64,000 bases of DNA from Cryptosporangium arvum DSM 44712 (GTDB lineage: Bacteria > Actinomycetota > Actinomycetes > Mycobacteriales > Cryptosporangiaceae). Location: NCBI RefSeq assembly GCF_000585375.1, contig NZ_KK073874.1:6540894-6604893 (forward strand). The letters run 5' to 3'. Of the stretch, positions 26,763 through 34,735 are shown in pieces (position 1 is the stretch's first letter; each line of letters starts with the position of its first letter). The notes under the pieces were generated by a model. The model had not been told where the DNA came from and did no database searches. It was given only the letters and a program-made list of their open reading frames with translations. The translations under genes were made by a program, and so were the position numbers.

Positions 26763-27629
26763 GTGCAAGTTCCCGCTCCCTTTGACTACGCCCGCGCGGA
26801 GAGCGTCGAGGACGCGCTGGCCCTGTTACACACGCACGGCCCGGAGTCGCGGGTGATCGCGGGCGGGCACAGCCTGCTGCCGATGATGAAGCTGCGGCTC
26901 GCCCGACCCGAGTGGCTCATCGACATCAACGATCTCTTCGAGCTGGACTACCTGGTCGAGGACGGAGGGACGGTCCGCGTCGGCGCGCTCACCCGGCACG
27001 CCACCCTGCTCAACTCCGACCTGATCGCGCGGCTGTTCCCGATCGTCACCGACGCCGAGAAGGTGATCGCCGACCCGGTCGTGCGCAACCGGGGCACGAT
27101 CGGCGGCTCGCTGTGCCAGGCCGACCCGGCCGAGGACCTGTCCACGGTCTGCGAGGTCCTGCGGGCCGAGGTCGTCATCCGCGGCCTGGACGGCGAACGG
27201 GTCGTCACGATGGAGGAACTGCACCGCGGCCCGTACGAGACCGCGGTCGCGCAGGACGAGCTGCTCACCGAGGTGCGCTTCGCCGTCCGGCCCCGCACCG
27301 GCAGCGCCTACGAGAAGGTCGAGCGGCGGGTCGGCGACTGGGCGGTGGCCGCCGCCGGCGCGTCGGTGACGCTCGACGAGACGGGGGCGATCGCGGACGT
27401 GGCGATCGGGCTGACCTCCGTCGGGCTGGACGGGCGCACCGCGACGCGCTCCGAGGACGCGCTCCGGGGCGAGCAACCGACCGAAGCCGCGTTCGCGGCC
27501 GCGGCCGCCCTCGCCGCCGAGGACTGCGACCCGGTCGCCGACCAGCGCGGACCGATCGACTACAAGCGGCACCTCGCCGCCGAACTGACCAAACGCGTGC
27601 TCCGGCGCGCCGTGGAACGGGTGCGCTGA
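26763..27629 (+). CDS. coxM: Aerobic CO dehydrogenase, medium (FAD) subunit
   Basis: A 288-residue flavoprotein. The FAD-binding motifs AGGHSLLP (residues 33-40) and TIGGS (112-116) are those of CoxM/CutM in the xanthine-oxidase family. It passes electrons from the CoxS iron-sulfur clusters towards the respiratory chain. It starts with GTG behind GGAGG and its stop overlaps the coxS ATG as TGATG. It is the first gene of a seven-gene rightward cox operon; the order M-S-L matches Oligotropha. Confidence 0.92.
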   Translation: MQVPAPFDYARAESVEDALALLHTHGPESRVIAGGHSLLPMMKLRLARPEWLIDINDLFELDYLVEDGGTVRVGALTRHATLLNSDLIARLFPIVTDAEKVIADPVVRNRGTIGGSLCQADPAEDLSTVCEVLRAEVVIRGLDGERVVTMEELHRGPYETAVAQDELLTEVRFAVRPRTGSAYEKVERRVGDWAVAAAGASVTLDETGAIADVAIGLTSVGLDGRTATRSEDALRGEQPTEAAFAAAAALAAEDCDPVADQRGPIDYKRHLAAELTKRVLRRAVERVR

Positions 27630-28096
27630 TGCAGATCACGATGACGGTCAACGGCACCGAGGTCACCGCCGAGGCCGAGCCCCGCACCCTGCTGGTGCAC
27701 TTCGTCCGGGACACGCTGAAGCTGACCGGCACCCACTGGGGCTGCGACACCAGCAACTGCGGCACGTGCGTGCTGCTGATGGACGGCGAACCGGTGAAGT
27801 CGTGCACGGTGCTGGCCGCGATGGCCGCCGGGCGGGAGATCCGGACGGTCGAGGGCCTGGCCCAGAACGGTGAGCTCGACGTCGTCCAGCAGGGATTCAT
27901 GGCCGAGCACGGGCTGCAGTGCGGGTTCTGCACGCCGGGCATGATGATGACCGCCCGCGCTCTGCTCGACCGCAACCCCGAGCCGGACGAGACCGAGATC
28001 CGCACGGCGATCTCCGGCCAGATCTGCCGCTGCACCGGTTACGCCACGATCGTCCGATCCGTCCAATGGGCGGCCAAGAACGGGGCAACCGCATGA
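27629..28096 (+). CDS. coxS: Aerobic CO dehydrogenase, small ([2Fe-2S]) subunit
   Basis: A 155-residue protein with two [2Fe-2S] clusters: Cys39, 44, 47 and 59 in the plant-ferredoxin-type N-terminal domain, and Cys98, 101, 133 and 135 in the helical C-terminal domain (CGFCTPGM and ICRCTGY). These relay electrons from the Mo-Cu site to FAD. The ATG overlaps the coxM stop, and its own TGA overlaps the coxL start as ATGA, indicating fixed stoichiometric expression. Confidence 0.95.
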   Translation: MQITMTVNGTEVTAEAEPRTLLVHFVRDTLKLTGTHWGCDTSNCGTCVLLMDGEPVKSCTVLAAMAAGREIRTVEGLAQNGELDVVQQGFMAEHGLQCGFCTPGMMMTARALLDRNPEPDETEIRTAISGQICRCTGYATIVRSVQWAAKNGATA

Positions 28097-33629: not shown

Positions 33630-34735
33630 TGCAACTCGACAGCGCGTTCGACGTGAGAGCACCGATCGACCAGGTGTGGTCGACGCTGATGGACTTCGAG
33701 CGCGTCGCGGCGTGCCTGCCCGGTGCGCAGGTGCTCAACACCCTGTCCGAGGATGCGTACCAGGTCGGCATGAAGGTGAAGCTCGGGCCGGTCACCATGC
33801 AGTACAAGGGACAGTTAGAGGTCGTGGAGCGGGTACCGGAGGAGCACCGGGCGGTGCTGCGCGGCAAGGCCAAGGAGGCCCGCGGCCAGGGCACCGCCGA
33901 GGCGACGGCACGGCTGGCGCTGACGTCGGACGGGGAGACGACACGCGGCACGGTGTCGGCGGACGTGAATCTGTCCGGCCGGGCGGCGGCGATGGGGCAA
34001 GGGGTCATCAACACGGTGACCGAGCAGATGATGACGCAGTTCGCGACGAACCTTCAGGCGATGCTGGAGGCGGGTAACGCTCCGGCGGGGGGCGACTCGG
34101 CGTCCGACGGGGTGACTTCGGCCGGTGCCGACGCTGGTGTCGCTGCGGGCGGTCAGGGTGCTGTGGATGGCGCGGCGGCCGGGGCCGATTCCGCACGGGC
34201 CGATTCCGCACGGGCCGATTCCGCACGGGCCGATTCCGCACGGGCCGATTCCGCCGGGGCCGGGGCGGTTCCGGCGAAGAAGGCGGCTCCGCGGAAGCGG
34301 GCCGCGGCGAAAGCGACCGGCGACGTGGCGGCCGCCAATGGGGCGGCGGTGACCGCTGCGACCGCTGCGGCCGGTGCCGCACCAGCAGTGGTCCCCCCGG
34401 TTTCCTCGACTCCTGCGGCTTCCCCGGCTTCCTCGGACTCGGCTTCCTCGGACTCGGCTTCCTCAGGCTCGGCTTCCTCGGCGAGCGGGGGTTCCGCGGG
34501 GACGACCGCGCGGGCGGTGGCCGCCGACGGTGGACCGCTGCCGAGCGCCCCCGGCACCCGCCCGGTGCCGGCCTTCGTCCCGGCCGACGACAACGCGCTC
34601 GACGCCGTCGCTCTCGCGAAGGCCATCGCGGAATCCCAGCTCCGCGAGCCCAAGAAGGCCCTGGGCCTGCTCGCGATCGTCGCCCTGCTGGCCTACCTCT
34701 TCGGCAAGCGCCGGGGCCGCAAGGCCGCCGCCTGA
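33629..34735 (+). CDS. coxG: CoxG-family SRPBCC protein with long linker and membrane anchor
   Basis: A 368-residue protein. Residues 1-148 are an SRPBCC (CoxG) domain (AFDVRAPIDQVWSTLMDF, CLPGAQVL). Residues 150-335 are a disordered Ala/Ser/Pro linker with two in-frame tandem repeats. Residues 344-358 (ALGLLAIVALLAYLF) form a C-terminal membrane anchor followed by KRRGRK. CoxG is known to tether CO dehydrogenase to the membrane and is reported to handle quinone for it, so this protein probably links CO oxidation to respiration. ATG 33629 has AAAGGA 8 bases upstream and overlaps coxE. It is the last cox gene. Confidence 0.9.
   Translation: MQLDSAFDVRAPIDQVWSTLMDFERVAACLPGAQVLNTLSEDAYQVGMKVKLGPVTMQYKGQLEVVERVPEEHRAVLRGKAKEARGQGTAEATARLALTSDGETTRGTVSADVNLSGRAAAMGQGVINTVTEQMMTQFATNLQAMLEAGNAPAGGDSASDGVTSAGADAGVAAGGQGAVDGAAAGADSARADSARADSARADSARADSAGAGAVPAKKAAPRKRAAAKATGDVAAANGAAVTAATAAAGAAPAVVPPVSSTPAASPASSDSASSDSASSGSASSASGGSAGTTARAVAADGGPLPSAPGTRPVPAFVPADDNALDAVALAKAIAESQLREPKKALGLLAIVALLAYLFGKRRGRKAAA
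34184..34255. repeat. 15-bp tandem repeat in coxG linker (ADSAR)
   Basis: Four identical 15-bp units from 34184 to 34243 and a partial fifth encode repeated ADSAR in the CoxG linker. The perfect copies imply recent expansion by slippage. Confidence 0.9.
34426..34480. repeat. 15-bp tandem repeat in coxG linker (ASSDS)
   Basis: Units at 34426-34440, 34441-34455, 34456-34470 (one variant) and a partial one to 34480 encode ASSDS-type repeats, a second independent expansion in the same linker. Confidence 0.85.

Follow-up and report, generated by a model that had tools for sequence, protein, structure and literature searches.

A YHS-type module on the maturation factor CoxF of a form I carbon monoxide dehydrogenase operon in Cryptosporangium arvum, and its possible role in copper delivery

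The stretch of DNA analyzed here, 64,000 nucleotides from Cryptosporangium arvum DSM 44712 (the window; bases 6,540,894–6,604,893 of a genome assembled as one contig of 9.2 Mb), contains a coxM-S-L-F-D-E-G operon whose catalytic subunit CoxL is, judged from its sequence, a form I carbon monoxide (CO) dehydrogenase and whose XdhC-type maturation factor CoxF ends in a YHS-type module. Throughout the genomes examined, a YHS module on an XdhC protein was nearly restricted to CoxF encoded beside form I CoxL. The module may deliver the copper atom needed by the enzyme. We consider it very probable that the seven genes encode a functional aerobic form I molybdenum-copper CO dehydrogenase together with its partners in maturation and electron transfer, and we propose in addition that the YHS-type module of CoxF serves as a head that binds copper and is carried by a flexible arm.

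The C-terminal module of CoxF

The coxF gene (30477..31403, plus strand), whose first base is also the final one of coxL, encodes 308 amino acid residues, comprising two XdhC domains (PF02625 and PF13478, both over cut-off), a linker, and a YHS-type tail, which was not mentioned in an earlier sequence-only reading of the window. The linker, from about residue 235 to residue 268 (31179..31280, plus strand), was predicted to be disordered, with predicted local distance difference test (pLDDT) values of 45–69 in the blocks covering residues 231–270. The module itself spans residues 273–306 (31293..31394, plus strand), and its putative ligands D273, C276, C295, and C299 have the D-x2-C and C-x3-C spacing of the YHS domain. 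The AlphaFold2 model of full-length CoxF had a mean pLDDT of 89.5, and the value for the module was about 95; it was used instead of a model of the isolated 40-residue tail, which folded poorly (pLDDT 59.8).

The module of the window scored 42 bits against our in-house YHS profile and matched a YHS-only profile with an E-value of 4e-11. When module-bearing relatives of CoxF were tested singly, seven of eight passed the Pfam YHS cut-off, and two YHS-less controls gave no match. In an alignment of 48 CoxF sequences, three of which were included because they lack the module, 43 matched Pfam YHS at an E-value of 0.001, with the window sequence among the non-matching ones, and the module ligands were nearly invariant. 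The two XdhC cysteines, C53 and C96, were invariant in the same alignment. Searching the Protein Data Bank with the tail of the CoxF profile retrieved the YHS domain of phenol hydroxylase (E-value 0.004) and, weakly, ribosomal protein L24e (E-values 0.2–0.4). Foldseek comparison of CoxF with the same database gave XdhC structures as the sole matches at E-values up to 0.001, and the module was not found by fold.

Assignment of CoxL to form I

The coxL gene (28093..30477, plus strand) encodes 794 residues. The motifs AYACSFR (373–379), GGGFGNK (256–262), and GIGES (744–748, with E747) were all found, AYACSFR and E747 at exactly the residues given in the sequence-only reading. Against TIGR02416, a curated aerobic CO dehydrogenase model with a cut-off of 991.15, CoxL scored 1360.5 bits, well outside what chance would give. 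Nearly the full length of CoxL also aligned with solved structures of CO dehydrogenases (8uem, 1ffu, and 1n5w), which we take to be the Mycobacterium smegmatis, Hydrogenophaga, and Oligotropha enzymes, respectively. The other molybdenum hydroxylases of the same genome were at most 45% identical to CoxL. Among 298 genomes of the order (the order sample), 50 had a CoxL over the cut-off, with scores of 1090–1479 bits, and the next match scored 749, leaving a gap of more than 340 bits between form I CoxL and lower matches.

A phylogenetic tree, the check that had been proposed for the assignment, was built by a quick method from 99 large subunits, consisting of 90 with the strict loop AYxCSFR, three of form II, and six others; its outgroup consisted of few rows, some of them on very long branches. 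The CoxL of the window fell inside a set of 22 rows, all of form I, with a support of 95. Three of the six other rows (L069, L074, and L094) were form I proteins with a variant loop, and the remaining three were paralogues from the window's own genome, some of them long-branched. The sister rows of the window CoxL were from Geodermatophilus and Trujillonella (support of the fork, 84), and the closest named relatives among the matches listed, from Geodermatophilaceae, Arthrobacter, and Cryobacterium, were 83–86% identical.

Some other molybdenum hydroxylase loci of the genome (L002–L007) carry coxD-, coxE-, or coxG-like genes, as might be expected if the cox operon were a generic molybdenum hydroxylase operon without real CO oxidation. 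The TIGR02416 score, the form I loop, the separation of scores in the order sample, and the position in the tree speak against this, and we regard it as extremely unlikely. Together with the alignment to solved structures, these results support the earlier prediction of a true CO dehydrogenase.

Occurrence of the module in form I loci

To the loci collected through CoxL alone (80 named loci, the best 80 of a longer list) we added 30 loci of the order and six plasmid records; other phyla were represented through the named loci and plasmid records, many of which were metagenome bins. A CoxF of at least 150 bits by profile was found in 77 of the 80 named, 29 of the 30 order, and all six plasmid loci. 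Two CoxF cut at contig ends (L043, cut inside the YHS module, and L095), the window's operon met again (L001 and L009), second XdhC frames without YHS that had scored as CoxF (L085, L090, and L093), and frames below 150 bits (L050, which is cut, and the second frame of L083, without YHS) were left out. With the window added, this gave 111 complete CoxF, of which 96 carried the YHS-type module (65 named, 26 order, and four plasmid loci, and the window). The pattern [DN]-P-x-C-x-M ... F-C-x3-C was kept in 94 of these 96, the exceptions being L015 (Deinococcus) and L073. The motifs around the two XdhC cysteines were present in 111 and 109 of the 111 CoxF, respectively.

The module-bearing CoxF came from Actinomycetota, Chloroflexota, Acidobacteriota, Verrucomicrobiota, Myxococcota, Bacillota, SAR324, a haloarchaeon, and a Paraburkholderia plasmid. 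All 98 open frames matched by the YHS profile in the fetched loci were CoxF frames (the window's operon being counted three times), and none of the 36 CoxI-type XdhC frames in these loci had the module. A chance motif in CoxF was rejected because of this absence and because 43 of the 48 aligned CoxF match Pfam YHS. Neither coxD nor coxE was seen nearby in nine of 11 named loci with a YHS-less CoxF (including L050, whose CoxF is cut), compared with 13 of 65 with YHS; the contigs were often short. Loci of the Nonomuraea type (L053, L058–L061, and L064) consisted of coxMSLF with a YHS-less CoxF and had no coxD or coxE in the flanks examined. The YHS-less CoxF of L041, L048, L097, and L108 end in short tails rich in His and Cys, possibly substitute metal sites, to which we give no weight. 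L073 is a form I locus on a contig titled as a metagenome-assembled genome of Bifidobacterium breve, probably a binning error. Two form I CoxL per genome, often in one locus, were seen at L067–L071, L055, and L066 and at G262:C11, G270:C40, and G099:C220; in the last three, which are order genomes, CoxF adjoins the lower-scoring CoxL (1090–1118 bits).

In the order sample, the CoxF profile gave 51 CoxF-type matches of at least 262 bits, the next match being 111 bits, and 50 of the 51 genes directly adjoined form I CoxL on the same strand. The CoxF of 47 of the 50 form I genomes carried YHS, in 46 by profile span and in G026 by reading the DNA; in G026, G029, and G453, the module sits behind a longer linker. 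The CoxF of G052, G087, and G280 (L098, L097, and L108, respectively) had no YHS, and the YHS-only profile gave no match in them either. The orphan CoxF of G029 (L131, on G029:C6, 3964–5226, minus strand) has an intact YHS module and is a decayed or re-used copy; both conserved XdhC cysteines are lost in its translation, which was read by eye. A control search of the order sample with the YHS-only profile gave matches in 89 genomes, namely 48 CoxF and, after merging tandem matches, 61 other places. Within about 1.5 kb on each side of these 61, where the contig allowed, no XdhC or CoxL was found, and five frames there scored for XdhC, with negative bits only. The order sample thus contains 48 XdhC-YHS fusions, all of them CoxF, and 47 of these adjoin form I CoxL.

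A phylum sample of 296 genomes, partly overlapping the order sample, listed 51 CoxF matches of at least 121 bits. Fourteen regions were re-read, and G314 and G567 were judged from matches that break off at the contig start. G416 (no CoxF and no YHS), G512 (a CoxF fragment with YHS and no CoxL within 6 kb), and the contig-cut G314, G442, G481, and G567 were set aside; of the remaining 45 CoxF, all except that of G052 carried YHS. G310, G396, G417, G420, and G452 had a YHS-bearing CoxF without a full CoxL over the cut-off, and the end of a CoxL adjoined it at the contig edge.

For the history of the module, a tree of CoxL from 95 form I loci, 80 with and 15 without YHS, was constructed by a quick method, with 13 of the 30 order loci included. 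The YHS-less rows were nested within YHS-bearing groups; read most simply, the tree suggests that the module was present early and disappeared on several occasions.

A possible role in copper loading, and the alternatives

The roles of CoxD, CoxE, CoxF, and CoxG are taken from literature on other organisms. In the mechanism that we propose, CoxMSL would oxidize CO (CO + H2O -> CO2 + 2 H+ + 2 e-), CoxD would help the sulfuration of molybdenum, and CoxF together with CoxE would load the copper, which would be held by Cys376 in the AYACSFR loop. The XdhC part of CoxF would dock on the sulfurated apo-enzyme, and the YHS-type head on its flexible arm would bring the copper. CoxG, anchored in the membrane by the hydrophobic C-terminal stretch that follows its long linker, would hand the electrons to quinone.

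We infer that the module binds copper and hands it to CO dehydrogenase. In the YHS-containing adenylyl cyclase of Mycolicibacterium phlei, as described in passages of PMC4626032, the D-x2-C ... C-x3-C pattern and spacing are the same as in the CoxF module, and Cu2+ activated the enzyme with Mg, while Zn, Fe, Cr, Co, and Ni ions did not. Passages of PMC4240915 report that coxE and coxF mutants of Oligotropha make copper-free CO dehydrogenase, on which ground the module is proposed here as the usual copper-loading arm. In the model put forward in the same passages, CoxF uses a phytase motif to release copper from phytate, MCPSHGTM is the site that binds the copper, and an RGD motif mediates the contact with CoxE. 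The phytase motif (RHGxRxP-like) and MCPSHGTM were each found in one of the 111 CoxF, that of Oligotropha itself, and RGD in six; the window CoxF has neither of the first two. Because of this rarity, these two motifs do not define the CoxF family, the published copper model fails to carry over to most of the CoxF examined, and YHS is the better general candidate. We put forward tentatively, at slightly less than an even chance, that the Mo-S-Cu site of form I enzymes usually receives its copper from the YHS module of CoxF, acting as a swinging arm ancestral to bacterial and archaeal form I operons, with several later losses (in Oligotropha, Nonomuraea, and some mycobacteria).

Several observations weigh against a copper-delivering module. 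The window copy is shortened and falls under the Pfam YHS (PF04945) cut-off of 30.3, the isolated tail reaching 18.2 bits and the tail within the whole protein 13.3 bits. Fifteen of the 111 CoxF have no module, which is thus not required in general; those without it include the CoxF of Oligotropha (L013), of Nonomuraea, and of some mycobacteria, and since Oligotropha makes active enzyme, the module is not essential for all CO dehydrogenases. Its presence and absence on the CoxL tree need seven changes, six of them forced by well-supported branches. G029, with a YHS-bearing CoxF and no form I CoxL in the genome, is a real exception to the linkage. In passages of PMC4240915, the Oligotropha coxE mutant and coxF mutant each lack both proteins, so that the part of CoxF itself in copper loading is not separated from that of CoxE, and the enzyme of a coxG mutant is also copper-poor. 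Modules of the TRASH/YHS type can hold other metals, such as Cd in ribosomal protein L24e, and the YHS domain in a toluene hydroxylase crystal contains no metal (both from passages of PMC4626032). Form I linkage alone cannot tell copper delivery from docking.

The metal-free YHS domain of toluene hydroxylase would suit a structural or docking piece, perhaps zinc-holding, that helps CoxF to dimerize or to dock on CoxL or CoxE without ever carrying copper. By profile, the module has its closest solved relatives in the phenol hydroxylase YHS and, weakly, L24e, neither of which is a copper donor, and the other YHS places of the order are on unrelated proteins. On such a reading, the module might be expected on the XdhC of other molybdenum hydroxylases, yet it was absent from the CoxI-type frames, and the partner that has it is a copper enzyme; we judge a purely docking role somewhat unlikely. 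Alternatively, the module could be a copper sensor that gates maturation, with the ion delivered by another protein or by the XdhC cysteines C53 and C96. In the M. phlei cyclase, the YHS domain probably senses copper (passages of PMC4626032), and the near-universal C53 and C96 could form a universal transfer site even in CoxF without YHS. CoxF has no output domain, however, and its long disordered linker suits a carrier arm at least equally, which makes sensing, in our estimate, decidedly unlikely. A persulfide relay or redox switch serving sulfuration instead of the copper step would fit the three conserved cysteines of the module and the handling of sulfurated molybdenum cofactor by XdhC proteins (described in passages of PMC4240915). 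Against it, other XdhC proteins lack the module although their client enzymes require the same sulfido ligand, and Asp273 is conserved alongside the cysteines, as in metal sites; we consider it very unlikely.

No paper linking YHS with CO dehydrogenase was found in a literature search whose scope left out most subscription papers and all preprints. The terms "YHS domain" and "CO dehydrogenase" co-occurred in tables of selenoproteins only, in unrelated rows, in the passages retrieved from PMC9312934 and PMC13188914. The XdhC-YHS fusion may already be displayed in domain databases. The CoxF-YHS architecture is widespread and undiscussed in the literature found, and is a variant of the known maturation set of CO dehydrogenase.

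Genes of the operon and their surroundings

The extent of the operon, positions 26763–34735, agreed to the base with the earlier placement, as did its six junctions on re-reading (TGATG, ATGA, TGATG, GTGA, an 8-base overlap, and TGATG). It begins with coxM (26763..27629, plus strand; GTG start), encoding the 288-residue flavin adenine dinucleotide (FAD) subunit (PF00941 and PF03450), in which both predicted FAD motifs, AGGHS (33–37) and TIGG (112–115), are present. The following coxS (27629..28096, plus strand) encodes the [2Fe-2S] subunit of 155 residues (PF01799 and PF00111), with exactly eight cysteines, the number given before, at residues 39, 44, 47, 59, 98, 101, 133, and 135. The coxMSL order, with sites for FAD and two [2Fe-2S] clusters, is as in form I CO dehydrogenases. 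Downstream of coxL and coxF are coxD (31400..32323, plus strand; GTG start), encoding an AAA+ ATPase (PF07728) with the P-loop GEPGVGKT at 57–64, and coxE (32316..33629, plus strand; GTG start), encoding a VWA protein (PF05762, VWA_CoxE, 204 bits) with DVSGS at 267–271.

The last gene, coxG (33629..34735, plus strand), starts with ATG at 33629, with an alternative in-frame GTG at 33626, and encodes 368 residues comprising an SRPBCC-type domain (COXG, PF06240; 77.7 bits, cut-off 22.2), a low-complexity linker of about 190 residues, and a hydrophobic segment, ALGLLAIVALLAYLFGK, at 344–360, followed by basic residues. This segment is a putative membrane anchor; neither it nor the linker had been mentioned before, and a hydrophobic stretch followed by basic residues at the C-terminus was common in the actinobacterial CoxG of the fetched loci. 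The linker (window positions 34150–34650) contains tandem ADSAR units and long stretches rich in Ser, Ala, and Pro. Residues 2–148 matched the solved CoxG 8uds, presumably from M. smegmatis, with 94 bits, and the window protein differs from it by the long linker after the domain. Kropp et al. (2025) are reportedly among the sources of a 2026 survey for CoxG as an electron carrier to the quinone pool. Passages of that survey, citing Pelzmann et al. (2014), describe CoxG as a menaquinone-binding membrane protein with this proposed function (PMC13240472).

The description of the operon as complete holds for MSL and FDEG; elsewhere, the genome carries two more genes for XdhC proteins (at 1.94 and 1.63 Mb) and, in a search with a single query, a MocA-like match (at 0.52 Mb) that shares 36% identity with a MocA from Arthrobacter. 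The reported absence of coxC, coxH, and coxK agrees with the finding that MHYT domains, which we take to mark proteins of the coxC/H/K kind, were found at a single place in the genome, 0.645 Mb, and the window covers 6.54–6.60 Mb. At 0.645 Mb, two adjacent frames with MHYT sensor domains (G000:C1:644752-646347) lie far from the cox operon; frames of the same kind adjoin the cox genes of Oligotropha. Directly after coxG, a 264-residue frame at 34822–35616 had no Pfam or NCBIfam match at an E-value of 0.001. Positions 36088–37122 encode a hydrolase of the metallo-beta-lactamase fold, whose best NCBIfam matches, the quinoprotein relay hydrolases SoxH_rel_PQQ, were below the cut-off.

A divergent gene for a LysR-type protein (25731..26666, minus strand; PF00126 and PF03466) precedes coxM and is the likely regulator of the operon. 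A relative of it was found beside coxM in all three congeneric genomes read and in L017, L021, L030, and L039, and was not found there in L023, L025, L028, and L029. The gap between the two genes contains a perfect 8 + 8 inverted repeat, CGACCTTG-N20-CAAGGTCG (26688..26723, with arms at 26688–26695 and 26716–26723), overlapping a conserved TTGACA at 26693–26698. The CCTTG/CAAGG core of the repeat was shared by the window and the three congeneric genomes and was absent in the eight other upstream regions read. By eye, TTGACA was present in 11 of the 12 regions, including those of L023, L025, and L029, where no LysR gene was found beside coxM. By the rules of our promoter scan, no sigma-70 site was detected, and terminator-like sites were no more frequent than in shuffled sequences. 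The seven cox genes are probably one transcription unit that starts in this gap.

Comparison with known systems

The cox genes on pHCG3 of Oligotropha (Afipia) carboxidovorans OM5 likewise comprise coxMSL with D, E, F, and G, and the form I CoxL is 57.5% identical to that of the window. The gene order is MSL-DEFG in Oligotropha and MSL-FDEG in the window, and Oligotropha has flanking MHYT genes and a second XdhC nearby. Its CoxF, which lacks YHS, has RHGQRQS, MCPSHGTM, and RGD, none of which is present in the CoxF of the window. The best solved relatives, 8uem for CoxL (1398 bits) and the CoxG structure described above, both appear to be from M. smegmatis. According to passages of PMC6794299, exhaustion of organic carbon leads to a 50-fold increase in the form I enzyme of this organism. 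In another mycobacterium, Mycolicibacterium frederiksbergense (L040), CoxF has no YHS.

The operons closest to that of the window, from Geodermatophilus and Trujillonella, Arthrobacter, and Cryobacterium, encode a CoxF with YHS like that of the window. Their gene order is mostly MSL-F-(mocA)-D-E, with G in many. In many of them, mocA and a gene for a CoxI-type XdhC lie within the operon or adjacent to it, which is not the case in the window. Compared with other YHS/TRASH modules, that of CoxF is fused to an XdhC-type factor for maturation of the molybdenum cofactor.

Significance

As an operon, the cox cluster is of a known and ordinary actinobacterial type; it should allow its host to gain energy from CO, and it extends by one the list of strains for which CO metabolism is predicted. 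The wider interest lies in the module on CoxF. A YHS-bearing CoxF beside CoxL offers a marker by which genuine CO dehydrogenase loci can be recognized in genomes. How the Mo-S-Cu site obtains its copper has been described in the literature from one organism, and the phytate/phytase model rests on motifs peculiar, among the CoxF examined, to that organism; if the module is the donor, it would replace this model. With its four conserved ligands, and nearly confined to form I operons in the genomes examined, the module on this maturation factor makes the copper question testable at the level of single residues.

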